Virus record (IMG/VR): IMGVR_UViG_3300041955_001933
Location: 1-38,697 of that record
DNA: 38,697 bases
Origin: a virus
Strand: one strand, 5' to 3'
The notes beneath the pieces are model-generated. The model worked only from the letters and a program-made list of their open reading frames with translations, was not told the DNA's origin and did not search any database. A program made the translations under genes and the position numbers. Positions 1 to 37,932 of this stretch are shown one piece after another; positions within the stretch are counted from its first letter, which is position 1; the number at the start of each line of letters is the position of its first letter.

Positions 1-1047
1 TCAAAGACCAGTAGAATGCGACTCAAGCGTCTTGCACCATGCCTGCCGCAAGGCCTCTGTTGCGTGGTAGGTAGCGGCGTGCCTGGCGTGGCCATGCCAG
101 GCGGCTACTACTGATCGCACATATTCTAGCGGGACCCGCCCCTGCGCGTACTCACGCGCCAGGTGCCGAACCGTGCGGCGCATTCCGACGATGCTGCGCC
201 GGCGCAAGAAACGATGGGTCGCCCAGATCCTGTATCCTAAGACATCGATCCCCTGGCCAACCGGGAATATGCTCGTCTTCGCGTTTAACCGAAGGTGAAG
301 CTCCTGGGCCAGGAAACCCTCGATCTGGCGGAGCCAACCGCGCAGTACTTCCTTCTCCGGGCGTAGAATTATGAAATCATCCATATACCGGACGTAATCC
401 CGCGCTCGGAGGTGTTCCTTCACGAAATGGTCCAGCTCGTTCAGGTAGATGTTGGCAGAGAGCTGGCTTGTCAGATTCCCGATGGGGAGGCCGACCGGTG
501 GGGGCACAGTGGAGTCAATAATGAGATCCAGCAGCCACAGCGTCTTCGGGCAGCGGACCGTTCGCCGGAGGATCCCCTTTAGATCGTCGTGACTGATGCT
601 CGGGAAAAACCGGGCGACGTCGCCTTTGAGACAGTAGACCGCAGGCCAGTTCCGGTTCGCCCGGCGGAGCATGAATTCGATCCGGTCGGCCCCGGCATGC
701 GTGCCGCGGCCCACCCGACAGGCGTAGGAATCCCTGATGAATTTCCTTTCAAAAAGGGGCTCAATCGCGCGGACGAGGGCATGATGAACGACTCGATCTC
801 GGAAGGGCAGAGCGGCGATCTCGCGTGCCTTGGGCTCGTATACCATGAATTTACGATAGACTCCAACGTGATAGGTCTGGGAGCACAGTTCCGTCTGGAG
901 ATCGAGGAGATTCGCCTCGAGATCTTGGCGGAAAGCGAGGGCCTGCCGCCCCCAACGTTTGCCCCGGGCAGCCTGGCGATAGGCCGCATGCAGGTTCCCA
1001 AAGGTCGTGATCTGCTCGAACAAATTACCCGCCATCTTTGGCATCAT
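1..1047 (-). CDS. DGR reverse transcriptase
   Basis: A 348-residue reverse transcriptase of the diversity-generating-retroelement type. In that family the enzyme copies the template-repeat RNA with errors at adenines, and the cDNA replaces the variable repeat of a target gene. The catalytic YMDD is at residues 221-224. The motif IGNLTSQ at 189-195 has the (I/V/L)GxxxSQ form typical of DGR enzymes, unlike group II intron or retron enzymes. There is no maturase or endonuclease domain, and the length is normal for the family. The start is uncertain: two ATGs at 1047 and 1044 and another at 1035 have no clear Shine-Dalgarno. The stop is at bases 1-3, so the gene is complete. It is the last gene of a target-avd-TR-RT cassette. 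The identification is very secure. Confidence 0.96.
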   Translation of the reverse strand: MMPKMAGNLFEQITTFGNLHAAYRQAARGKRWGRQALAFRQDLEANLLDLQTELCSQTYHVGVYRKFMVYEPKAREIAALPFRDRVVHHALVRAIEPLFERKFIRDSYACRVGRGTHAGADRIEFMLRRANRNWPAVYCLKGDVARFFPSISHDDLKGILRRTVRCPKTLWLLDLIIDSTVPPPVGLPIGNLTSQLSANIYLNELDHFVKEHLRARDYVRYMDDFIILRPEKEVLRGWLRQIEGFLAQELHLRLNAKTSIFPVGQGIDVLGYRIWATHRFLRRRSIVGMRRTVRHLAREYAQGRVPLEYVRSVVAAWHGHARHAATYHATEALRQAWCKTLESHSTGL

Positions 1048-1169
1048 GGATGATCGGAGGGAGCGGCGGTCGGCTGGTAGCCTACTGGTCGCCCCCTCCT
1101 GTTCAATGTTTCGCCCCGGGCCTGTGCCTAGGGCGTGGAGCGCGATCCGTGCTCATCATGGCCTGGCCG

Positions 1170-1183
1170 GTCCCCTTGGGGAC
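1170..1183 (-). other. small hairpin in the TR-RT spacer
   Basis: A 14-base near-palindrome (GTCCCC, TT, GGGGAC) lies 17 bases beyond the TR on the RT side. It may be part of the folded spacer that in characterised DGRs primes or positions the RT-Avd complex. This role is inference. Confidence 0.4.
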
Positions 1184-1200
1184 TCGACATCTGCCGGCGG

Positions 1201-1313
1201 TGAGCGCCGCGCGGGCGCCGATGTTCCAGTTGGCGTTGGACGGGCTGTTGTTCAAGTTCAGCGCGCCTGGGCACTGGGCCCCGTTGTTGCAATTGCCGCC
1301 ACGGATGGCCATC
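1201..1313 (-). repeat. DGR template repeat (TR)
   Basis: A 113-base copy of the variable repeat, offset by exactly 551 bases from it. Read in the target's frame it has nine AAY (Asn) codons. All nine are replaced in the VR, by Phe, Asp, Ala, Ser, Gly, Ala, Asp, Glu and Asp. I count 14 differences at coding-strand adenines and two at other bases. AAY codons cannot mutate at A to a stop codon, which is the known design of DGR templates. Confidence 0.95.
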
Positions 1314-1354
1314 CGCCCGCGGATGTGCGATCGCGCCCCAATCGCGCCGGGCAA

Positions 1355-1708
1355 TCACAGCGTGGCCGGCGCGACCTCTCGCTGGCTCCGGATCCATCCG
1401 CCCAACAGCCGGCCGATCTCCACATTCAAGGTCTGCCAGCGCTCGTACTGGCGAAGCGGGATCAACCGGACCGTATAGGCGATCCGGACCAGGGATTTCA
1501 ACACTGCCACTTCGATGTCGATCTCGGTCAACGCGGTCTTCTTGTAGTGCCGGCGGTTGCAGGCGACTACCAACCGGAGGAGGCGGTACATGCTGCATCG
1601 GAGATCGGCCCCTAGGACGTGCCGTTCAACCTTGGGGAAATTGCGGACGACGCCGAGACCGTAGCCGATCATATCCTCGACCTTCTGTTGGATCTTTAGG
1701 GCTTCCAC
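1355..1708 (-). CDS. avd: DGR accessory protein Avd
   Basis: A 117-residue basic, helical protein of the Avd/four-helix-bundle (bAvd) family, which binds the DGR reverse transcriptase and template RNA and is needed for cDNA synthesis. It shows the family-like start (VEALKIQQKVEDMIGYG), a FPKVERH motif near residue 24 and a helix rich in Arg/Leu (SMYRLLRLVVACNRR). The GTG at 1708 is chosen because GAGGAAG lies five to nine bases upstream and because the longer open frame reads back through the target's variable repeat in a different frame. It lies between target and TR, the usual place. The RBS overlaps the foot of the VR-side hairpin, so its translation may be weak or controlled. Confidence 0.88.
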   Translation of the reverse strand: MEALKIQQKVEDMIGYGLGVVRNFPKVERHVLGADLRCSMYRLLRLVVACNRRHYKKTALTEIDIEVAVLKSLVRIAYTVRLIPLRQYERWQTLNVEIGRLLGGWIRSQREVAPATL

Positions 1709-1715
1709 GGCTTCC

Positions 1716-1739
1716 TCGGGCGGGCTATCGCCCGCCCGA
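1716..1739 (-). other. DGR target hairpin downstream of VR
   Basis: A ten-pair perfect inverted repeat with a four-base loop reading GATA on the coding strand, 12 bases past the VR 3' end and absent beside the TR. In other DGRs a hairpin or cruciform with a 7-10 bp stem and a GRNA-type tetraloop just after the initiation-of-mutagenic-homing site is needed for target recognition. GATA fits that loop rule. It spans the target-avd junction and overlaps the avd ribosome-binding site. Confidence 0.85.
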
Positions 1740-1743
1740 CAGA

Positions 1744-2856
1744 TCAGGGAATGAGCACCGCGCGGGCGCCGATGTCCCACTCGGCGTCGGACGGGCTGGC
1801 GCCCAAGCTCAGCGCGCCTGGGCACTGGGCCCCGGCGTCGCAAAAGCCGCCACGGATGGCCACCATCTCACCGCTAGGCGCGTACCAGAATCCCATGCCG
1901 TCAAATGGCCCACCGCCCGCCGCACCCGTGCTGGCAGGAGTCCCATGCCGCGCGATCGCCGCCTCCCCGCGAAGGGCCGTCACAGACTGGCCCGACGTCA
2001 CGCCGGCGATCGTGAGGCCGGTGTCGGTATAAGCCGCACTGTTGTACGGTCCCGCCGGGTCGATCGTCTTTCCGGCAGACCAGATCTCCGTATTGTAGAG
2101 CCGGAGCCCGTCGGTGAATTCCCAGCGGTTGCCACAGAAATCGGAGACTGGCAGATCCCAGGACGGCGGACCGCCGCCGGCCACGTTCACGCCGTAAGCC
2201 AGGGGATGCGCGGTGTCCTGCTGGCCGAGCTCGCTCCCGTCTCCGTGGTACTGGGGGGCCTTGGCATTCGTGCCGTCGTAGCCCGCGGTGTTGCCCCGCA
2301 AGAGAATGCGGTTGATCCGGGTCCAAACATAGATTTCGAACCAGTGCTGGTCGGTGATGAGGCCGCCATGGGTCGCCCAGTACGCGGCGGACACCTGGGG
2401 GCCGTCGCCACGCAGGAACCCGGCCCCGGAGGCAAAGCGGGCGACGAGGTAGGTCTTAAAATGGGCGATGGCCTCGTTCACCCGTGGGGCGACGCCCCGC
2501 TGGCTGTGGTAGGCGATCTTGGTAGCCCCCCCGTCGGCGACGGTGCCCATACTGGCAGCGCTGGCGTCGCGGCTGCTGCAGAGGTACTGATCCACCCAGA
2601 AGCCGCCCATGGAATAGGTCACGAAATCCGTCGTCTCGACGGCGCCGGCCGGGGTGAGGATCGGGTGGAACCAGTCGCCGATCGTGCCGCTCGGCGTGGC
2701 ACCCGCGCCGAGCGTGGTCACCGCCTTCCTGGCAGTGAACGGCGGGATCCAACGCATCCACGAGATCGTGCCCTCCGGGTCGACAAAACGGCAGAGGGGC
2801 GCCGCGAGCAATTCGTGGCGCTTGCGCCCGGTCCACAGGCTCAGTTCTTCGCCCAC
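1744..2856 (-). CDS. DGR-diversified tail protein with FGE/C-type-lectin-like fold
   Basis: A 370-residue protein whose last 37 codons are the variable repeat. Motifs near the C-terminus (WDLPVSDFCGNRWEFTDG, about residues 230-247, and VAIRGG and IGARAVL at the end) match the formylglycine-generating-enzyme-type C-type-lectin fold used by most DGR targets. In these, the variable residues form a ligand-binding face on an invariant scaffold. The GTG start at 2856 follows AGGAGG with eight-base spacing, inside the end of the upstream gene. It lies at the distal end of the tail operon, so a receptor-binding tail-tip or fibre protein is the natural reading. The phage role is inferred; the DGR-target status is very secure. 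Confidence 0.92.
   Translation of the reverse strand: MGEELSLWTGRKRHELLAAPLCRFVDPEGTISWMRWIPPFTARKAVTTLGAGATPSGTIGDWFHPILTPAGAVETTDFVTYSMGGFWVDQYLCSSRDASAASMGTVADGGATKIAYHSQRGVAPRVNEAIAHFKTYLVARFASGAGFLRGDGPQVSAAYWATHGGLITDQHWFEIYVWTRINRILLRGNTAGYDGTNAKAPQYHGDGSELGQQDTAHPLAYGVNVAGGGPPSWDLPVSDFCGNRWEFTDGLRLYNTEIWSAGKTIDPAGPYNSAAYTDTGLTIAGVTSGQSVTALRGEAAIARHGTPASTGAAGGGPFDGMGFWYAPSGEMVAIRGGFCDAGAQCPGALSLGASPSDAEWDIGARAVLIP
1752..1864 (-). repeat. DGR variable repeat (VR)
   Basis: This is the 3' part of the target gene and aligns without gaps to the TR. Fourteen substitutions fall at positions that are A in the coding-strand TR (10 to G, 2 to C, 2 to T). Two others are C to G (1780) and C to T (1757). 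The C-to-T lies in the GC-rich 3' end, where IMH and its TR counterpart commonly differ. VR ends five bases before the stop codon. Confidence 0.95.
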
Positions 2857-4623: not shown

Positions 4624-7509
4624 TCACACTCCCACGCAGGTCAGCTCCGCCCGCCCCATCTGACCGGGCGGGCACAATGTGCGGACGATTCGTTCGACGG
4701 TGAACGGCTCAGCGTCCCAGCCACCGGGCATCCTGGCGCTGGTGATCCCAACGGGATCGCAGAGCTCAAGGTGCAGCGTGGGCAAGGCGAACGCGGTCGC
4801 CGTCGCCCGCCACTTCACGTCTTTCATGAAGGCGAGGTACCTGGCGGCGATCGCCGCCGCCGCGGTGTCGTCCCGAATGAAGTCATTCTCGATGGTGAGC
4901 GTATTTGCGGTCCGGTAGGTCGCCTGGGAGGTTGTATCCTCCACGTCGATGAGCGCCCAGTACGTGCCGCCCAGGACGCTCTTCCGGTACAGGAGCCAGA
5001 TATGGTTCACGAGGTAGATGGGGCGCGTCCGGCCGACCTTTATGGGGCCTCCCCCATGGTCGGGCCCCAAGACGTCCACGGGCTCGTCAATAGTCATCGC
5101 GGCGGTCCCGCCGAGCGGCAGGACATGCATCTTGAACCGGCCGTCCTGGCCGAGGAAGAGCCGCGAGGCCGTGGACCAGCGGATCCGCTCCAGCAGCTCT
5201 GCGCTGTCCATCGGCTGGTAGAGGCCCCAGTCGGCGCGGATCCCGGCGGCGGCGAAGGCCGCCCGGGCCGCCGCAAATGAGACCGGATCCACGTACTCGC
5301 TCAAGTCGAGGCCGAGCTGCTCGCCGACGATGTGGGCGACCTGGTCGGCGGGATTCGTGACCAGGGCGTTCGGCGTGCCCGTGTAGGTCCCCGAGCCGTC
5401 ATCCTGGTAGCCCTCGACGTCGCAGGTCACAACCTTCCCCACCTCGACGTCTGCGCCGCTCAGGACCACGTTGGCGGTCCGTGAGGTGCTGACGGCGGTC
5501 GAGCCGTTCAGCGCGGACATGCTCGTGGCGGTCGCGCCGGCGAGCCCGGCCATGCTGCTGGCGGTGGCCCCGGCGAGGGCCGCCATGCTGCTCGCGGTCG
5601 CGCCGGCGAGGGCGACCATCTGGGTGGCCGTGGCGCCGGTCAGGGCGGCCATGGCCACCGCGGTCGCGCCGGTCCGAGACGTGGAGACCCCGGTGGCCGC
5701 GTTGGCATTGCCGGTACCAACCCGCGTCAGGTCGCGTTCGACGACATCGATCAGGATCGTGCCTGCGCCAGCCATCTTGAGAGTGTACTGGGTGCCCGGC
5801 GATGCCTCCGTGAAGAAGTTGTCCCCCTGGGCCAAGGTCTCGACCACATTGGCCCCATTCTTCCACTGCCAGGTGCCGCTGATGACGTCGACGTAGATGT
5901 GCCAGTTCACGCTGGTGCTTGACGCCGGCGTGTTCGCGAAGTTGAAGACCTGGTCGGCCGTGAATTGCGCCGGGAGGCTGGGCGAGGACTGGTACTCGTG
6001 GCACATGTCCGCCGTCGTGTGGGTGTGGCTCCCGGTGTCGGTGGAATGGCCGTGCTCCGCCGTCGTCGCGATGGATCCCGGCGACTGCTCCGAGGTGGTC
6101 GAGATCGAGCCGGGGCTCTGCTCCGCGGTCGTCGCGATGGATCCCGGCGACTGCTCCGAGGTGGTCGAGATCGAGCCGGGGCTCTGCTCCGCGGTCGTGG
6201 AGATGGATCCGGGGGACTGTTCCGAGACGACCGCGGTGCTAAAGCTGGGCTGCTGGTGGACGATTGTCGCGACTATCGTGGCCGGTTTGGCGGCGAATTT
6301 TATCAGCGTCGGCCCGCTGAGATCGATGCTGTAGATCGATGGATCCTGAAGGACGCCGTCCACGATCACGTTGGCCACGCTCCTGCAACCGTGGCGCGCG
6401 ACCAGGTAGGAGTACTCGGCCTTGATCTCCCAGACGGCAGCGCCTGCGGCATGCGAGTCCGGGGTCGTAGTCGCGTATCCGCGCGTGCAGCCGGTGAGAT
6501 GGACGGCCATCGTCATGGCCACGACCGTGCCGCCGAGAGCCCCCCAGCCTGCGGAGTTCACGGGCACCGTGAAGGCGTTGGGATTTAGCACGATGACCGG
6601 CCATGTGCCGTTCAGCGCCTCCCACACGTCACCGATGCCGCCGGTGGCGCCCGTGATGACGACCCCATCCCCGGTCACCAGGCCGTGGCCCGCGCTGGTC
6701 AGCACAACCGGATTCGCATTGTTCGCGCCGGTGATCGGTATGGTCCTGGCCCCGAAATCCTTCCCGGTGTAGTAGATCTGCTCGTCGCCGATCTGCACCG
6801 TCCCGGCAGCCGGAAAGAGGGCGAGCATCCAGTCGTCGGAGAGAGGGATGATCGTGACGGCGGAGTCGATATCGCCGGCGAGTCGGTCTGCGGCGCCGGC
6901 GTCAACGGCGAGGCAGGGGGAGCCCTGCACGGCGCCGTAGATCTCGGGCTGCATAGACCCGACCGCGTCGGGGTCCGCACGGGGGAACTCCGCCGCGGTG
7001 ACCATGGTGCCGAGGACCTCATGGATGCGGTTCGGCTGCCGCCCGAGGGTATCCGGCGTGGCAGGCTGGCCCTCATCGAGCAGGTTGAGCGTGAAGGTCT
7101 CATCATCGAATGCGCCCTGCTCGGGGAGGAGGCCGACCCCCCGGAAGACGGGCAGCCAGTCACCTGCGGCCATTCCGACGAAGGCCTGGTCGATCTCGAT
7201 GGCGCAGTTGTCCATCACGCTGTCCGCGAGCAGGTCGCTGAACCGGGCCCCGCTGGCATCCGGCAGGTTGCTGATCACGAGATCTCCCGAGTTCCGCTCC
7301 ACGCGCCCGAGCCGGTCCACCGCCATGGTGAGCGTCAAACCCTCCTTGAGCAGTTCCTCGTAGACCTGGCCGTCGTAGGTGCCGGCGCGCGAGGTCAAAT
7401 AGACCGTGCTCCCGCCGAAGGTGATCCGCACCAGGACGACGGGCTCGGTCGGGGCATCCTGCCCGCCATCAGCCTGGGCCGCAAACGCCGCCGTGCGGGT
7501 CTGCGCCAT
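4624..7509 (-). CDS. tail tip / central hub protein with internal repeats
   Basis: A 961-residue late tail protein. The N-terminus (about 1-130, ITFGGSTVYLTSRAGTYDG onward) looks like a tail-hub beta domain. Residues about 255-332 are an E1_FCCH-like module (TSAGHGLVTGDGVVITGATG, LNGTWPV). Residues 430-484 are five 11-residue repeats, and 615-669 five different 11-residue repeats. The C-terminal 270 residues (NPADQVAHIVGEQLGLDL, then a domain with ADWGLYQPMDSAELLERIRW) resemble the central hub of lambda J/siphophage tail-tip proteins. It follows tape measure, as expected for the hub that anchors fibres. The ATG at 7509 has a GGTGAG upstream. The exact family is uncertain. Confidence 0.8.
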   Translation of the reverse strand: MAQTRTAAFAAQADGGQDAPTEPVVLVRITFGGSTVYLTSRAGTYDGQVYEELLKEGLTLTMAVDRLGRVERNSGDLVISNLPDASGARFSDLLADSVMDNCAIEIDQAFVGMAAGDWLPVFRGVGLLPEQGAFDDETFTLNLLDEGQPATPDTLGRQPNRIHEVLGTMVTAAEFPRADPDAVGSMQPEIYGAVQGSPCLAVDAGAADRLAGDIDSAVTIIPLSDDWMLALFPAAGTVQIGDEQIYYTGKDFGARTIPITGANNANPVVLTSAGHGLVTGDGVVITGATGGIGDVWEALNGTWPVIVLNPNAFTVPVNSAGWGALGGTVVAMTMAVHLTGCTRGYATTTPDSHAAGAAVWEIKAEYSYLVARHGCRSVANVIVDGVLQDPSIYSIDLSGPTLIKFAAKPATIVATIVHQQPSFSTAVVSEQSPGSISTTAEQSPGSISTTSEQSPGSIATTAEQSPGSISTTSEQSPGSIATTAEHGHSTDTGSHTHTTADMCHEYQSSPSLPAQFTADQVFNFANTPASSTSVNWHIYVDVISGTWQWKNGANVVETLAQGDNFFTEASPGTQYTLKMAGAGTILIDVVERDLTRVGTGNANAATGVSTSRTGATAVAMAALTGATATQMVALAGATASSMAALAGATASSMAGLAGATATSMSALNGSTAVSTSRTANVVLSGADVEVGKVVTCDVEGYQDDGSGTYTGTPNALVTNPADQVAHIVGEQLGLDLSEYVDPVSFAAARAAFAAAGIRADWGLYQPMDSAELLERIRWSTASRLFLGQDGRFKMHVLPLGGTAAMTIDEPVDVLGPDHGGGPIKVGRTRPIYLVNHIWLLYRKSVLGGTYWALIDVEDTTSQATYRTANTLTIENDFIRDDTAAAAIAARYLAFMKDVKWRATATAFALPTLHLELCDPVGITSARMPGGWDAEPFTVERIVRTLCPPGQMGRAELTCVGV
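5503..5667 (-). repeat. five 33-bp repeats in tail-hub gene (ATAxxMxALxG)
   Basis: Five in-frame copies of an 11-codon unit (consensus ATASSMAALAG) at protein residues 615-669. The period equals that of the second array, although the sequence differs. The regular small-residue/Met pattern would suit a fibrous shaft. Confidence 0.9.
6058..6222 (-). repeat. five 33-bp repeats in tail-hub gene (EQSPGSISTTA)
   Basis: Five near-identical copies of an 11-codon unit, EQSPGSI(S/A)TT(A/S), at protein residues 430-484. Alternate copies match best, which suggests duplication of a 66-base pair of units. Copy number is likely to vary between relatives. Confidence 0.93.
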
Positions 7510-12251: not shown

Positions 12252-13121
12252 CTACCTCGGAATCACGCTCTTGTAGCGGTCCAGGCGCGCCCTCGCCTCC
12301 GGCGGCATGTCGTCGATCTTGAAGCTGGCGGTGCCGCCGCCCCCCTGACCCGACATTGAAATGCTCGCCGCCATCAGCCGGCGGGTGTTGCCGATCGTGT
12401 GCATGTGCGCGGCCATGATCACGATCGCCTCTTCCACGCCCTTCGGCAGGCTGGCGAAGCCGGCCCGGTACGTCACGGCGATGTTCTGGATTCCGTCCGG
12501 GAAGAACGAACGCTGCAGCGGGCCGCTCGGCGAAGACCAGAGAGCCATCGCCGCCGACGAGAGCAGTGTGATCTTGCCCACGTCCCGCTGGACGGCGTAC
12601 TGGTTCACCGCGAAGCTCTGGAGGTCGCCGTTGTTCCCCTCCTGGACGAGCTTCAGCAGGGTCACGCTGACGATCGGCCATTGCGGCGTGTAGATGAACG
12701 GGAGATCCTTCCCGTCCAGCAGGGCGTCGTCCGGCGTGCTGACGGGATCATAGTCGGCCACGGCGAATTTCCGATCGCAGTAGTCCTGGGCGACCTCGGA
12801 GGCTCGGTCCGCGCAGTCCTGGAGCTTGACGTCGTGCTCGCTGCCGGTGATTTCGAGCCACGCCTTGATCTGCTGGATCGTGACGAGGGCGCTAGTTGTC
12901 GTGGCCACCACCGTGCCGGTGAGGTCATCGAAACCGGTGGAGTCCACCGGCACGGAGAATGTGTCCTCGTCCACCCTGGTGATCGGCCAGGTGCCATTCA
13001 GCGGCGCCCACAGGCCGGTGGCACCCGTGACGGCGATCCTGTCCCCCGTCGCCAGGCCGTGGGCCGCACTGGTCAGGACGGCCGGATCCGCATTGCTCGC
13101 CGCGGTGATGGGGAGGCTCAC
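12252..13121 (-). CDS. head-tail connector (gp6-like) with N-terminal FCCH-like module
   Basis: A 289-residue protein. Residues about 2-75 form a beta module (TSAAHGLATGDRIAVTGATG, LNGTWPI, DTFSVPVDSTGF) of the E1_FCCH type that also occurs in the tail-hub protein of this phage. Residues about 85-285 look like a phage gp6-type head-tail connector (IQQIKAWLEITGSEHDVKLQ, then AQDYCDRKF and a late helix LPKGVEEAIVIMAAHM). The start is GTG at 13121, overlapping the upstream stop (GTGA). A fusion of a surface-like module to a connector is unusual. Confidence 0.75.
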   Translation of the reverse strand: MSLPITAASNADPAVLTSAAHGLATGDRIAVTGATGLWAPLNGTWPITRVDEDTFSVPVDSTGFDDLTGTVVATTTSALVTIQQIKAWLEITGSEHDVKLQDCADRASEVAQDYCDRKFAVADYDPVSTPDDALLDGKDLPFIYTPQWPIVSVTLLKLVQEGNNGDLQSFAVNQYAVQRDVGKITLLSSAAMALWSSPSGPLQRSFFPDGIQNIAVTYRAGFASLPKGVEEAIVIMAAHMHTIGNTRRLMAASISMSGQGGGGTASFKIDDMPPEARARLDRYKSVIPR

Positions 13122-15283
13122 GGTCGCTCCGCTCCCGCTGGCAGGCTGGCAGGCTGGCAGGCTTCAGAGTTTTCCAGCTTGCCAGCTTGCTCGCTTGCCC
13201 GCGGTCCTGCGGCGGGTCGCCGCAGCAGCATATGGAAATCGAACCAGGAGATGAAGCCGCACTCTGGCCCGTCATGCTTCTCGACCTCGGTCACCTCCAG
13301 GCCCGCCTTCATCGCCTGGGCCGCCAGGGCCGGCGCCGACCAGATGACGTGGTGCTCCTTCCGATGCAGGTGATCCTCCACGTGGGCGTTCTCCGCGTCG
13401 GGCGTGGCGATCAGGATTAGGCCACCCGGCCGGACGAGCTGGAGCATCTTTTCAAGGGCCTTCACGGGCTCCTTAAAGTGCTCAAAAACGTGGTTGCTGA
13501 AGACAACGTCCCATGTCTCCGGTCCAAGGTCCGAGGTCGGTATCGTCTCGAAGTCGCCGATGAAGCGAGGGAAGTCGCCGTTGGGCGAGGCCGGATTGAG
13601 CTCGACGCCGGCGACGTCCCATCCGCGCTCGCACGCCAGCATGAGGACTTCCGGCAGGCAGTACCCGATCTCGAGCAGCCGCGGTCGCTCAGCCATTCCG
13701 CATTCCGCATTCCCCATTCCGCGTTCGCGCATCAGCTCCTCGATGCGCGGCAGCCACCGCTCCCCGACGGCGCGGATCAGTTTGCGCGGCTCGGGAGAGT
13801 CGTACTTCTTCGTGTAGGCCTCATCGTACACCGAGTGGTCCACGTGCCGGACGTCCTGGAAGATAACGCCGCAGCGGCAGAGCGCCCAGCCCGGCTTCCC
13901 CACGGCCGGGACCCGCTCATAGGTGCCCACGTGGCAGACGGGACAGGTCATGGGCTCTGGCTCCGGGAAGGTGCGCTGGGGGGCGGCGGGCATCCCGAAC
14001 CTCGCCCCGCACGCGCAGATATAGACGCCGTCCTGCAGGATCCGGTTTTTCTGCCTCCCGCAGGCCGGGCACGTGCGATCCTTCCGCCCACGAAGGATCG
14101 AGCCGATCGTCTGGAACACGCGCCCGTGGTCCAGGTGGACGCAGCATTTCGCGCCCACCGCGCGGCCGCGTCCCTGGCCACCGACCGCTGACACCTGACC
14201 ACTGACCTCTGGCCCCTGGTCCCTGCCCGCCGATTCCTGGCAGGCGGGCGTGGTCCGTGGTCCGTTGTCGGCCCTCTCATGCTGGCCGGCTGCGGCCGCC
14301 CAATCCAGGTCCGCCTCATAGGCGCGGCAGCTCTCCGGCTCGCCGCTGATCAACTTGTAACAGGGGGCGCAGTCGCAGCGGTCCGTCGGGTAGATCGGGT
14401 AGGCGTTCCACCAATACAGGCTCAAGTTCTCGTGGCGGCTATGGGAGAAGAAGATCACCTTGGGGCTGTCCCAGCAGGCCGCTGCGTTGACGATCGAGCT
14501 TTCGGGCCCGACGACACAATCGGCGATCGAGGTCGCCAGGAGCTGCTGGCGGAGCGACCAAGTCTTGTACACGGGGACACAGCGATCGCGGACGACGTCA
14601 AGGATCTTGCCCGCGCCGATGAACTGCTCGACCCCGCCGTCGCCGCAGAGGTATATGACGAGCTCCGGGATCTCCTTCAGAAGCCCGGAGATATAGTAAT
14701 TCGCTTGGGGGAGGGCCTTGTTGTAGGCGGACCCGGCCGCGTGCCAGAGGAGCATCCGCTGCTTCTTGGACACGTGCTGGAGCCGCAGGCTATCAAGCCA
14801 CCGCCGCTCGGCCCTGCTCGGAAAGAGCTGGGGAAGCAGCCCGCCCAGCCATGGCATCGCCAGCCGGCGCACGATCTCGTCGGTGTAGTGCAAGTCGGTC
14901 TGGCGCTCCGCGAGCGGCAGATTGTATTCGAGGGGATGGTCCCTCTGCTTCCAGAGGGCGACACTTTCTACCGACCAGGTCAGGCAGACGGCACCGTCAT
15001 AGTCCTTCGCCAGGTCGTTGAACCACGCCTCGACTGCCCTGGGCATCAATTGCTGCCTGTTCTCCGGGTCCTGCAGCTCCTGGCCATCCGGGGTCCTCTG
15101 CTCTTCGAACGGGATCAGCCGGCGGACGTGCGGATTGTGCGCCAGGACCTCCCGCCCGCCGGCGTCCGTGCAGAAATCAATGATGAAGCCCTGGCGGCGA
15201 AGGACCGGCAGAGCGGCCGTGCACCAGATCAGGTCGCCGATCCCGCCGACTCGCCAAATCAGCAGCGTCTTTGCTGCGCTCAT
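13118..15283 (-). CDS. glycosyltransferase family 9-like / SAM methyltransferase fusion
   Basis: A 721-residue two-domain enzyme. Residues 1 to about 330 resemble a heptosyltransferase-like GT9 fold: RVGGIGDLIWCTAALPVLRR at 11-30, and VGPESSIVNAAACWDSPKV near 256. Residues 335-366 are a linker encoded by degenerate repeats. Two Cys pairs (CPACG about 401, CPVCH about 440) precede a class I methyltransferase (LLEIGYCLPEV about 534, then VVFSNHVFEHF and GGLILIATPDAENAH). The GT part would move a sugar from a nucleotide donor, and the MTase part would methylate an unknown acceptor. It lies between capsid and connector genes. The start ATG at 15283 has no good SD. It is probably cargo acting on host surface sugar or on the virion. 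Confidence 0.82.
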   Translation of the reverse strand: MSAAKTLLIWRVGGIGDLIWCTAALPVLRRQGFIIDFCTDAGGREVLAHNPHVRRLIPFEEQRTPDGQELQDPENRQQLMPRAVEAWFNDLAKDYDGAVCLTWSVESVALWKQRDHPLEYNLPLAERQTDLHYTDEIVRRLAMPWLGGLLPQLFPSRAERRWLDSLRLQHVSKKQRMLLWHAAGSAYNKALPQANYYISGLLKEIPELVIYLCGDGGVEQFIGAGKILDVVRDRCVPVYKTWSLRQQLLATSIADCVVGPESSIVNAAACWDSPKVIFFSHSRHENLSLYWWNAYPIYPTDRCDCAPCYKLISGEPESCRAYEADLDWAAAAGQHERADNGPRTTPACQESAGRDQGPEVSGQVSAVGGQGRGRAVGAKCCVHLDHGRVFQTIGSILRGRKDRTCPACGRQKNRILQDGVYICACGARFGMPAAPQRTFPEPEPMTCPVCHVGTYERVPAVGKPGWALCRCGVIFQDVRHVDHSVYDEAYTKKYDSPEPRKLIRAVGERWLPRIEELMRERGMGNAECGMAERPRLLEIGYCLPEVLMLACERGWDVAGVELNPASPNGDFPRFIGDFETIPTSDLGPETWDVVFSNHVFEHFKEPVKALEKMLQLVRPGGLILIATPDAENAHVEDHLHRKEHHVIWSAPALAAQAMKAGLEVTEVEKHDGPECGFISWFDFHMLLRRPAAGPRASEQAGKLENSEACQPASLPAGAERP
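13140..13205 (-). repeat. short-period repeat, C-terminus of GT-MTase gene
   Basis: Imperfect units of GCTGGCAG/GCTTGCCA on the plus strand encode the last Ala/Pro/Glu-rich residues of the enzyme. They look like a late, in-frame extension. Confidence 0.75.
13690..13735 (-). repeat. short-period repeat inside the methyltransferase domain
   Basis: Four imperfect copies of GCATTCC (plus strand) encode GMGNAECGMAE, inserted in frame just before the SAM-binding loop. A GGTCCAAGGTCC unit lies in the same domain near 13523. Confidence 0.75.
14180..14275 (-). repeat. degenerate repeats forming the GT-MTase linker
   Basis: The plus strand shows runs of CTGACCACTGACC, CTGGTCCCTG and GTGGTCCGTGGTCC type. 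In the coding frame they give a Gly/Gln/Arg/Ser-rich linker between the two enzyme domains, as if the fusion was made through repeats. Confidence 0.75.
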
Positions 15284-34015: not shown

Positions 34016-34302
34016 CACGGCCAGTCCCCGTAGCCCATGGGGAACGGCTTCAAGTCTTCATGTCCCCCCCTCTGCTCCCCGCCCCGGTCTGCCCCCGCCG
34101 CCTCCACGGCCAGGCGCCGGGCCTCGATGTACTCCGGCGTCACGAGGCTCAAATCATCCTGCTGGCCCTCGTGGTACGTCGCCCATACTGCTCGTTTGAG
34201 CAGTATCGGCACCCGCCGCCAGTGCGGCCGGCACATGAGCCAGTAGTACGGGATCCGCTGGTCGCACCCCAGCACCGGACATGGCCTCGTCGCCGGCCTC
34301 AT
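34015..34302 (-). CDS. small Cys-containing early protein
   Basis: A 95-residue protein with CPVLGCDQRIPYYWLMCRPH (Cys/His quartet, about 8-27), a pattern of small phage zinc fingers, then a polar helix. ATG 34302 has GGAG and overlaps the ATPase gene's stop. Confidence 0.62.
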   Translation of the reverse strand: MRPATRPCPVLGCDQRIPYYWLMCRPHWRRVPILLKRAVWATYHEGQQDDLSLVTPEYIEARRLAVEAAGADRGGEQRGGHEDLKPFPMGYGDWP

Positions 34303-35414
34303 TTCTCCGCGTCCTCGAGCTGGGCGTCCACGACCGCCGCGACCCGGTCCAGGGTGGTCATCGTCACGCGGCCGCCATCCTTCGCGGCCTCGATCGCCGC
34401 TTGCTGGCAGTACAGGGCGACAGCGCGGAAGGCGCCGGGCCCCTGGGCCCGCGCGACGAGCCGCTCCAGGACCTCGGCGTCATAACTCTCCAGGTGCCTC
34501 GCGACAATGGCCTCCACGTCCTGGCGGTGGGCCTTCCGGCGAAGGAACTTCTTCGCGCCGAGGCGGGTGGTGAACTTCTCCATCCGCTCGGCCGTCCGGT
34601 CGTTCTCCAGGTTTCGCCAGAAGCGCTCGTTGCTGACAAAGGCAAGGCCGATCGCCGTCCGTTCCCAGAGCTGGCGAAGCATCTCCATGGTCTTCTCCCC
34701 CAGCTCTCCGTCCAGGTGCTCCGCCTCGTCCACGATCAAGAGCCGACCGCTGTTGGCCAGCTTGACCACGACCTGCTCGTAGAGGTCGGCGAACCGGGCG
34801 TGCGCGGCCATCTTCAACTTGCCCGCGAGGTGCCCCAGGAAGGCCCTGGGCGCCCGGATCTGGTACCCGCAGAGGACGTAGATCACGCCCTCGTTGGTCT
34901 CTGCGTAATGGCGGCAGGAGATCGTCTTGCCCATCCCGCTCCGCCCCACGTCCGCCACCATCCGGTGGCCGTCGTGCGCATCCTGGAGCACGGCCAGGGT
35001 GTGGCGCGCTGGGCGCGTCTCCACAAATTCCGCCTCGGTCACCTGATCCGCCCGCCGCCCCTCGCGCGCGAGGTAGCGGGAGATCGTCCGGGCGAAGGCC
35101 GGCTCCTGCTTTGGGACGGGGAACTTGCCGGACAGGAACTGGTTGACATAAGCTGGATTTGAGCCGATGGCCCGGGCGACGTCGGCCTGCGTAGCGCCGC
35201 TGCGCTCGATGTAGCCGGCCAAGTCCGACCGGACGAGGGAGATAAAGGCGTCGGTGCGCGCCACCTTACTGGCGGCCCGGACCTGTTCCGGATCGCGACT
35301 CAGTCCTTCGATGATCCGCGCCGCACTCGCCTTCGGATCGAGCCTGACGGGCCCGTCCTCGGTCTCCGGTCTTGGCTCATGGCTCATGGCTCGTACTGCT
35401 GCTGCCTGTGGCAT
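34299..35414 (-). CDS. MuB-like AAA+ target-DNA activator
   Basis: A 371-residue protein. The first 25 residues are partly repeat-encoded (AVRAMSHEPRPETEDG). Then comes an XRE-like HTH (ATQADVARAIGSNPAYVNQF, about 74-93), an AAA+ core with Walker A GRSGMGKT at 157-164 and Walker B LLIVDEAEH (Asp229/Glu230), and a C-terminal helical domain (FRAVALYCQQAAIEAAKDGG). In Mu, B binds ATP and target DNA, activates A and gives target immunity. ATG 35414 follows AGGAG and lies one base past the transposase stop. Confidence 0.9.
   Translation of the reverse strand: MPQAAAVRAMSHEPRPETEDGPVRLDPKASAARIIEGLSRDPEQVRAASKVARTDAFISLVRSDLAGYIERSGATQADVARAIGSNPAYVNQFLSGKFPVPKQEPAFARTISRYLAREGRRADQVTEAEFVETRPARHTLAVLQDAHDGHRMVADVGRSGMGKTISCRHYAETNEGVIYVLCGYQIRAPRAFLGHLAGKLKMAAHARFADLYEQVVVKLANSGRLLIVDEAEHLDGELGEKTMEMLRQLWERTAIGLAFVSNERFWRNLENDRTAERMEKFTTRLGAKKFLRRKAHRQDVEAIVARHLESYDAEVLERLVARAQGPGAFRAVALYCQQAAIEAAKDGGRVTMTTLDRVAAVVDAQLEDAEK
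35360..35402 (-). repeat. TGGCTCATGGCTCATGG-type repeat at the 5' end of the MuB-like gene
   Basis: The plus strand reads CTCGGTCTCCGGTC followed by CTTGGCTCATGGCTCATGG. It encodes the N-terminal low-complexity residues of the ATPase. Confidence 0.75.
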
Positions 35415-35415
35415 G

Positions 35416-37545
35416 TCAGTCTCCTGTGACTCTCGCGGCCCGGGCCGCGTACCGTTCCTCCAGGACCTGATCGCTCAGATCCGCGGCATTCGGCTTCCGA
35501 ACCCGCGCGGCTCTCGGCTCTAGGCTCCCCGGCTCCTCATCCTGGATCCTCGCCCGCACGGCATGGAGCCGCGCATCCTCCGTCGGCGGATGCGCCACCA
35601 GGCGAGCCGATTCCCGGGCGCCGGTAGAGACCGGAAGGATCTGGGGGACGCCGGGCCGACCTGGCGGCGCGGGGGGCCGCGCCGTGCCGTGGGCGTCGGT
35701 GGGCAGCGCGTTGGCGTAATGGTCGCGGAGGACCCGCTTGAGCCCGTCGGGTTCGTTCCGCGCAGCCCGCTGCTCGGCCTGGACCGCCCGCCCCTGGGCC
35801 CGATGGCGGGCCTGCTGCCGCTTCGCCTCGGCGATCGCGGCGCTGGGCACTGCGCCGAACCCGAGCAAGGTCTTCTCCACGAGCCAGCCAATGGGGCTGT
35901 CGTCGGCGTCCACCAGGAAGACGCGGCTGGCGTCCTGTGGGTCGTAGCGCGCGCGGGCTTCTTTCCCCTCCCACCCATAGAGACAGTCGAGGTTCTCGAC
36001 GGCGGGCGTGTAGCGACGTCCCAGCAGGCTCACCTGGTTGCGCCGCACGGTGACCGTCGGGGATCGCATCAGGAAATACCTGAGCTGCTCCCGCGTGGCC
36101 CTGCGGACCTGCACCTGGCCGATGAGCTCGGCCCACACCTGATTCGGGCTCCGCCCGTTCATGCCCTGGCCGGCGTGCGCCCGCTCGTGGTAGTCAGTCT
36201 CGATCCAGCCGGTGATCACGCGCTCCACCTCGGCGAACGTGGGCAGCTTGCCTGCGCTGAGGACTTCCTTCAGCCGCTCCGGCTTCATTTCGGTGGACCG
36301 GCCGCAGTAGGTATCGAAGAATTTCCCGACGTTCTCCTCGAGGGTCCCGAACCAGCGCTCGATCGGCTTTGCGCGGGCATTAAACGGGTCCGCGAAATGC
36401 GCCTGCACCCCGAGCTGGTCGCACAAGCTCCGGCAGCGCCCCTCATCCAGGCCGAGCCGGAAGACCTTGCCCCGGCCGCCCGTGACGGACCGGGCGCGGA
36501 AATCCTTCCCGTTGTCCACGTAGAGGTGATCGGGGATCCCCCAGAGAAGGATGGCCTTGCCCAGGCAGTAGAGGACGACGTCCTGGTTCGGCTGCGTGGA
36601 GAGGACGATCACCACGCGGCGGGTCCGGAGGTCCTGGAGCGCCGTGATATACGGCCGGCACCGCCTTCCCTGCTGGTCGAGACAGATCACGTCGAGGGGC
36701 GAGTGGTCCATGCAGAACCACTCGAGGGGGAGGATCGTTTCGTAGTCACGCTCGATGAATGGCCCGACGTTCCGATAGGCCTTCGCTCCCATCCGGAGCG
36801 CGGCCTTCTCCTCGGCGGAGAGGTGCCCCAGCATGTAGCGGACCGCGTGCAGCGTGGGCGCCGGCCCGGGACTCGCCTGGCGGGCCCGCACGATGAGAAA
36901 GGCACGATAGCTCGTCGCGGCCTTTGGCTGGGCCTGATCGCCCCACACGCTCAGGAAGAGTGCCTTGTCGGCGCCGGCCAGGCTGGTGCTCCGTCCACCG
37001 GAGTAGCGGGGAACGAGGCCGGCAGGCCCCTGGGCCTGGTGCGCCGCCGCCCAGGCGTACAAGCTCGCCTTGCTGACGCACTGGCCGGCCTCGCGCTGGA
37101 TCCGCACGAATTCCCGCGTCGCCTCGGTCCTGCCTCGTGGTCCGTGGTCTTGTGGTCCCGTGGTCCCGACGAACTGGCGCCAGCCAGTCAGGAGGGCGAG
37201 CCTTCGATCCGCCTCCGCCCGATCCCTCGGGCTCGCCGTCTCGTACCCGCTCCCCGCCTTCGGTTCCTGGACCTCCGACGTCGGACCTTGAACATTGGAC
37301 GCCGCGCGCTGGAGCGCGCGGACCTGCACCACTCCCGGCAGCGCGGTCAGCGCGATCTCGAGCCGCTTCCCCCGGCTCTCCCGGGCCGAGACATATCGGT
37401 GATCCCAACCTTCGGCCAGGATCCGCTTGCGCACGGCCCGCGCCGTGATCCCCAGTAGCTCCGCCGTCACGGTCGCGGGGACGAAGGTCTCCTGCGCCCC
37501 GGCTCTCTCGTCCTCGGTCTCAGCATGTGGACTTATCTTTTCCAT
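35416..37545 (-). CDS. MuA-like DDE transposase
   Basis: A 709-residue transposase. The N-terminal DNA-binding region (TAELLGITARAVRKRILAEG, about 28-47) is followed by repeat-encoded linkers, a second helical domain and the RNase-H core with Asp280 (WFCMDHSPLD), Asp344 (LYVDNGKDF) and Glu396 (AKPIERWFGTLE). This spacing is close to MuA 269/336/392. A beta-barrel-like and basic C-terminal part contacts the MuB-like partner. It joins phage ends to target DNA for integration and lytic replication. ATG 37545 follows GAGGT. Low-complexity insertions at about residues 77-95 and 125-139 are unusual. Confidence 0.95.
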   Translation of the reverse strand: MEKISPHAETEDERAGAQETFVPATVTAELLGITARAVRKRILAEGWDHRYVSARESRGKRLEIALTALPGVVQVRALQRAASNVQGPTSEVQEPKAGSGYETASPRDRAEADRRLALLTGWRQFVGTTGPQDHGPRGRTEATREFVRIQREAGQCVSKASLYAWAAAHQAQGPAGLVPRYSGGRSTSLAGADKALFLSVWGDQAQPKAATSYRAFLIVRARQASPGPAPTLHAVRYMLGHLSAEEKAALRMGAKAYRNVGPFIERDYETILPLEWFCMDHSPLDVICLDQQGRRCRPYITALQDLRTRRVVIVLSTQPNQDVVLYCLGKAILLWGIPDHLYVDNGKDFRARSVTGGRGKVFRLGLDEGRCRSLCDQLGVQAHFADPFNARAKPIERWFGTLEENVGKFFDTYCGRSTEMKPERLKEVLSAGKLPTFAEVERVITGWIETDYHERAHAGQGMNGRSPNQVWAELIGQVQVRRATREQLRYFLMRSPTVTVRRNQVSLLGRRYTPAVENLDCLYGWEGKEARARYDPQDASRVFLVDADDSPIGWLVEKTLLGFGAVPSAAIAEAKRQQARHRAQGRAVQAEQRAARNEPDGLKRVLRDHYANALPTDAHGTARPPAPPGRPGVPQILPVSTGARESARLVAHPPTEDARLHAVRARIQDEEPGSLEPRAARVRKPNAADLSDQVLEERYAARAARVTGD
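37130..37176 (-). repeat. GTGGTCC-type repeat inside the transposase gene
   Basis: Plus-strand CGTGGTCCGTGGTCTTGTGG and two GTCCCGTGGTCCC units encode GTTGPQDHGPRGRTEA within the transposase N-terminal half. Confidence 0.78.
37255..37315 (-). repeat. GGACCTTGAACATTGG-type repeat inside the transposase gene
   Basis: Plus-strand GGACCTCCGACGTCGGACC and TTGAACATTGGACG units encode RAASNVQGPTSEVQEPKAG. The same TTGGAC/GTCCAAGGTCC family recurs at 10197-10257, 13523 and 19430. Confidence 0.78.
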
Positions 37546-37578
37546 GTGACCTCGTGTGGTGTCGCCTGCCTCATCGGT

Positions 37579-37615
37579 CCCGGGTGGCGCCCGGGAGACC
37601 CCGCCGAAGCGGGGT
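37579..37615 (-). other. two hairpins before the transposase gene
   Basis: CCCGGG-TGGCG-CCCGGG and ACCCCGC with a four-base loop (TTCG on the minus strand) lie between the exported-protein gene and the transposase gene. No U-run follows. They may tune transposase expression. Confidence 0.5.
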
Positions 37616-37620
37616 TTCGG

Positions 37621-37932
37621 CTATCGTTGCGGCATCCCGACCGCACACGGCAGATCGCTCCAGCGCAGCCTTTCACGCGCCTCGGCGCACGTTAGCCCGT
37701 AAGGCCCGATCTGCCCTCCCCCGCCGCTCGCCGCCGGCGGAAAATCCGTCGGGCGGCTCTTCACCCGGGTCTCCTCCGTCGCGATCACATCGAGACTTTG
37801 CTGGATCGTCCGGACCTCGCGGCTCTCTGCCCTCGGCTCTCGGCTCCCCTTCATCTGTGCCAACGCCGGTCTCGCCGCCCCAGCGAAGCCACCGACTACC
37901 AGGACCATGACTGCGACGATCAACCTTTTCAT
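37621..37932 (-). CDS. exported small protein in the early region
   Basis: A 103-residue protein with a Sec signal peptide, MKRLIVAVMVLVVGGFAGAA then RPALA, and a predicted cut after ALA. The mature part starts with a repeat-encoded stretch (KGSREPRAESREV) and ends in a Cys-containing segment (YGLTCAEARERLRWSDLPCA). Two Cys could form a disulfide. A periplasmic protein between regulator and transposase genes is not part of Mu; exclusion of other phages is possible but unproven. ATG 37932 follows AGGAGGG. Confidence 0.68.
   Translation of the reverse strand: MKRLIVAVMVLVVGGFAGAARPALAQMKGSREPRAESREVRTIQQSLDVIATEETRVKSRPTDFPPAASGGGGQIGPYGLTCAEARERLRWSDLPCAVGMPQR
37815..37855 (-). repeat. CTCTGCCCTCGGCTCTCGG-type repeat in the exported-protein gene
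   Basis: Imperfect CGGCTCT units on the plus strand encode the start of the mature protein. The same family is found at about 35505-35530 in the transposase C-terminus. Confidence 0.72.

Follow-up and report, generated by a model that had tools for sequence, protein, structure and literature searches.

A Bordetella-type diversity-generating retroelement as the last module of a Mu-like phage

The reference for diversity-generating retroelements (DGRs) is that of Bordetella phage BPP-1, ordered mtd-avd-TR-brt, where a template repeat (TR) and a variable repeat (VR) differ specifically at adenines, where an Avd protein is encoded, and where a hairpin follows VR. The prophage DGR of Thermus aquaticus has the order taqvp-avd-TR-rt, and its variable protein TaqVP has a CLec fold of the FGE subtype (PMC6328139). 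Association of DGRs with transposable phages has itself been known for over a decade. They were reported in 2013 in Mu-like phages of Firmicutes, as the title of that work tells (Toussaint, 2013, as cited in PMC5883640). The Bacteroides hankyphage (p00), compared here through the descriptions in the papers and belonging to a different host group, combines a flexible siphovirus tail, a Mu-like transposase and a terminase with a DGR comprising an Avd-like ORF (PMC6199706), and this DGR is active in culture (PMC12135933). Chromohalobacter phage YPCBV-1, described as Mu-like with DGR genes (PMC9769972), and the Mu-like Bacillus phage BalMu-1 carry a target-(avd)-TR-RT cassette near their right end. 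Finally, Vibrio phage vB-Vv-ZX4290 displays MuA, a MuB-like ATPase, terminase, tape measure, tail tip, target, avd, TR and reverse transcriptase (RT), again with the cassette at the right end.

We analysed a 38,697-nucleotide stretch of viral DNA (the whole of the IMG/VR record IMGVR_UViG_3300041955_001933, hereafter the window) against this background. Its parts and their order are those of BPP-1, but the carrier is Mu-like and the target, which is nearer to TaqVP, does not match Mtd in sequence. ZX4290 has the same gene order as the window, with a longer target (465 aa) and with an RT and an Avd that are 46% and 48% identical to their counterparts here. YPCBV-1 differs by its baseplate module, of contractile type, and by an Mtd-like target domain, while BalMu-1 has XkdT-type baseplate genes and places lysis genes after the RT. 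The preliminary description of this DNA had seen novelty in a DGR joined to a transposable phage; this has to be given up, as the hankyphage (2018), YPCBV-1, BalMu-1 and ZX4290 already show the combination. That DGRs occur in Mu-like phages, that they close the tail module, that their targets can be of CLec/FGE type and that a hairpin follows VR was all known before, so that no concept is changed: the locus adds a clear and compact example to the known transposable phages that use a DGR.

With a probability of about 0.96, we read the first 2,856 positions of the window as a complete, canonical Bordetella-type DGR that forms the terminal module of a temperate, Mu-like phage (Table 1). On the minus strand, target, VR, hairpin, avd, a non-coding gap holding TR, and RT succeed one another as previously proposed, and the view that no extra gene intervenes holds in this phage. 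The RT carries IGNLTSQ at residue 189 and YMDD at residue 221, in keeping with the DGR-type signatures [ILV]GxxxSQ and YxDD; its match to phrog_1423 spans nearly its full length, and it is 38% identical to BPP-1 brt over the whole length. In a tree of phage DGR RTs, it falls in no well-supported subgroup. The accessory protein, which in DGRs may be of Avd or HRDC type, is here an Avd; the start of its gene is placed near 1708 because of the reading frame and of a GAGGA just upstream. The hairpin, a tetraloop structure of Bordetella type, begins 12 nt past VR and is more stable than shuffled sequences (z = -5.0).

Table 1. Positions of the DGR components and of the transposition genes in the window.
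Feature	Positions	Strand	Evidence
DGR reverse transcriptase, 348 aa	1..1047	-	RVT_1 8.5e-17; phrog_1423 1.2e-137; IGNLTSQ, YMDD
Template repeat TR, nine AAY codons in VR frame	1201..1311	-	repeat comparison
avd (accessory variability determinant), probable GTG start 1708, exact start uncertain	1355..1708	-	bAvd PF22296 2.4e-29; phrog_3206
Post-VR hairpin, 10-bp stem, GATA loop	1716..1739	-	folding vs shuffles; comparable hairpins in relatives
Variable repeat VR, target residues 333-368	1752..1862	-	repeat comparison; hypervariable in relatives at nine predicted residues
DGR target (variable protein), 370 aa, GTG start	1744..2856	-	relatives L014 76% / L024 53% identical; phrog_2889 and tail family phrog_5302; profile match to TaqVP 5VF4
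MuB-type ATPase	34299..35414	-	AAA_22, Phage-MuB_C; phrog_296
MuA-type transposase	35416..37545	-	DDE_2 and Mu-transpos_C; phrog_310 2e-107

The repeat pair is real, even though the ends initially given to it (1313 and 1864) lay 2 nt too far and must be corrected to 1311 and 1862. TR and VR, the latter at the 3' end of the target gene, are 111 nt long each and 86% identical. Thirteen of their 15 mismatches fall on the 24 adenines of TR (hypergeometric p = 7e-9), a pattern that is beyond chance, and the VR letter is never A at any mismatch. All nine AAY codons of TR are altered in VR, against none of the five other complete codons that contain A. Asparagine is thereby replaced by F, D, A, S, G, A, D, E and D at residues 338, 340, 341, 350, 352, 353, 357, 359 and 361, respectively. 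The earlier expectation that changes would be limited to TR adenines is thus borne out for the 13, not for the two that remain, both at C: one is the third position of an AAC codon, and the other lies close to the 3' end.

Relatives give an unusually clean picture of this process, with the nine predicted residues hypervariable and the rest of the repeat conserved. Using the target of a relative as the query, we collected 15 loci of the target family. In an alignment of the VRs of eight members, mean entropy reaches 2.45 bits at the nine residues as compared with 0.37 at the other 27 (p = 1.1e-6); similarly, the VR of the window differs from that of the related locus L022 at 9/9 predicted positions and at 4/27 of the others (p = 7.6e-6). 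Residue 358 is variable as well, and the TRs of relatives carry an AAY codon there (AACAACAAT in L026, L027 and L029). An absence of VR variation in relatives had been named beforehand as one of the outcomes that would speak against a working DGR. It is the opposite that we find, exactly the predicted nine residues being hypervariable, which supports the identification of a complete cassette in a Mu-like phage and implies that VR diversification has operated in this lineage. No further copy of this phage turned up in a search for its exact VR/TR pattern. In another, more distant phage, with an RT 42% identical to that of the window, two near-identical contigs sharing the same TR (L006 and L007) differ at 9 of 12,346 bases (12.3 kb); six of these nine differences are inside VR, and five of the six are at TR adenines. 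The comparison of these contigs shows such a cassette working in nature, in a phage other than this one.

The RTs most similar to that of the window, whether from IMG/VR or from named phages, are surrounded by DGRs of the same layout: TR lies 517-574 nt on the 3' side of VR, and most mismatches fall on TR adenines. Two distant RT relatives (L012 and L013) have a different layout. Stems of 7-12 bp closed by 4-nt loops occur at the same place in L024-L027, L029, L030, L004, L017 and L019. Two related genomes, G016 (L030; 40 kb) and G010 (L022; 36 kb), have MuA near one end and, at the other, a target (about 52% identical), the hairpin and avd; G016 also carries TR and RT, whereas the G010 contig ends before them. 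MuA was sought in related contigs with phrog_310, since the Pfam family Mu-transpos_C matched neither these contigs nor any control genome, and the transposase used as a query found no relative among IMG/VR contigs. At L022, target and avd are separated by a gene for a D12-class N6-adenine methyltransferase (6538-7335). In L026-L030, more DNA than in the window lies between target and avd, and the distance from VR to TR there is about 1.55 kb, which suggests an insert at the same place as this methyltransferase gene.

Some members of the target family stand apart from any recognised DGR. L014 and L037 are the two ends of a 46-kb contig (G001, IMGVR_UViG_3300032020_000013) and overlap inside a target gene 76% identical to that of the window, with a diversified VR and the hairpin after it: this is an orphan DGR target, and neither RT, TR nor a MuA-type transposase was found on the 46 kb. 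Likewise, L023 and L033 are the two ends of a 41-kb contig (IMGVR_UViG_3300005393_000010) split inside the same target gene, in which no RT or MuA-type transposase was recognised. It is conceivable, but very unlikely, that a DGR like the present one, resident in the same host, could rewrite in trans the VR of a G001-like phage; were this true, such a DGR would be a shared rather than a private mutator.

The target has no match among Pfam families, nor in 50,697 phage records, and neither its alignment nor that of the capsid protein has a match in 84,980 bacterial and archaeal genomes. Two PHROG families match it, phrog_2889 and, weakly, the tail family phrog_5302. A profile of 13 members finds a single solved structure, 5VF4, which is TaqVP (E 1.7e-5); about 100 residues are well covered, while the VR part aligns weakly (4.2 bits). 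Homologous targets are found in ZX4290 (E 1.7e-5) and in BalMu-1 (E 2e-10), the latter itself matching FGE-sulfatase. AlphaFold models built with 2 and 13 sequences had a pLDDT of about 30 and were not used for fold searches, so it is through homology to TaqVP that the nine variable residues are predicted to be exposed. Taken as a prediction from sequence, a tail-end variable protein of CLec/FGE type is well supported.

Could the repeats have nothing to do with the RT, as an ordinary duplication of a gene end that diverged by chance? Two of the 15 differences do lie off adenines, yet the 13 others single out the adenines of one copy, this adenine-biased copy adjoins RT and Avd, and related loci show the same pattern; adenine bias and comparison with relatives together refute this explanation, to which we leave practically no credit. 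That the DGR has decayed, as a relic in a defective prophage where VR is no longer rewritten, deserves more attention. Activity in this phage is judged from sequence, and G001, a relative with the same target family that has neither RT nor TR, indicates that loss of a DGR can happen. Against decay, every ORF is open, the RT retains YMDD and IGNLTSQ, and VR is free of frameshifts, all nine AAY codons having been altered without creating a stop; furthermore, the repeat has hardly changed outside its adenines, as recent copying predicts. We therefore hold decay to be quite unlikely. The DGR looks intact, and adenine bias, open ORFs and variation in relatives suggest that the cassette probably works, in which case it would rewrite VR in this very phage.

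Even with a working DGR, the target might be something other than the receptor-binding tip, for example another displayed or secreted protein such as a lysogen surface protein or a capsid decoration protein. Indeed, CLec/FGE domains bind many kinds of ligands, and Pfam and PHROG matches revealed no tail-fibre attachment domain in the target. This is nevertheless rather unlikely: the target gene comes immediately after the genes presumed to encode the tail tip, an arrangement shared with ZX4290 and YPCBV-1, the match to phrog_5302, albeit weak, is to a tail family, and the targets of BPP-1 and of the hankyphage are tail fibres (PMC12135933). Because of this position after the tail-tip genes, a role of the target in adsorption, in contact with the host surface, is likely; by analogy with homologues, it may bind a receptor, and its diversification may change host range. 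One of the presumed tail-tip proteins (4624-7509, minus strand, 961 aa) has internal repeats, with SEQSPGSI.TT and GATASSMAALA-like units, and its counterpart at L022 bears different short repeats (SVSDTI, SKSGSA) in a comparable location.

The components, their order, the adenine bias and the hypervariability of the same residues in relatives are observed; how they work together would follow the known DGRs. TR would be transcribed as part of a non-coding RNA, as in BPP-1 and the hankyphage, and this RNA would be copied by RT and Avd with errors at template adenines. The resulting cDNA would then replace VR at the end of the target gene, presumably beginning at its GC-rich 3' end if the direction is that of known DGRs, and the hairpin may aid this replacement. 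The outcome would be the rewriting of nine Asn codons in a domain of CLec/FGE type, part of a tail-end protein in probable contact with the host surface.

As for the carrier, a MuA-type DDE transposase and a MuB ATPase qualify it as Mu-like. Genes for terminase, portal, head protease, head-tail connector and endolysin match known families, whereas the sole match of the putative major capsid protein is to a family whose function is unknown; the label of an HK97-type head comes from the portal, protease and terminase matches. The presumed tape measure has no family match. Baseplate_J was not found in the window genome, while it was detected in a P2-like control, and it is from this absence of a recognised baseplate-J gene that a siphophage may be proposed; a search for a contractile sheath had no match in the window, but missed the P2-like control too. 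The record starts exactly at the stop codon of the RT gene and ends at a start codon, and was therefore probably trimmed to gene boundaries, its true ends presumably lying beyond it.

Two further features of this genome may be recorded. The gap immediately preceding the MuA gene contains a type II hammerhead ribozyme (RF02276, 47.9 bits, E 6e-7) at 37560-37622 on the minus strand, the sense strand of that gene; ZX4290 also has one, elsewhere in its genome (L018, 8547-8617). According to PMC10085705, hammerhead and twister ribozymes of bacteria show a strong association with genes of Mu-like phages, for reasons that are unknown. The head operon contains an unusual cargo for its position: a 721-aa ORF (13118-15283, minus strand), situated between the genes for the putative capsid protein and the head-tail connector, with a SAM methyltransferase domain (PF13489) at its C terminus and an N-terminal region that looks, by eye, like a glycosyltransferase.
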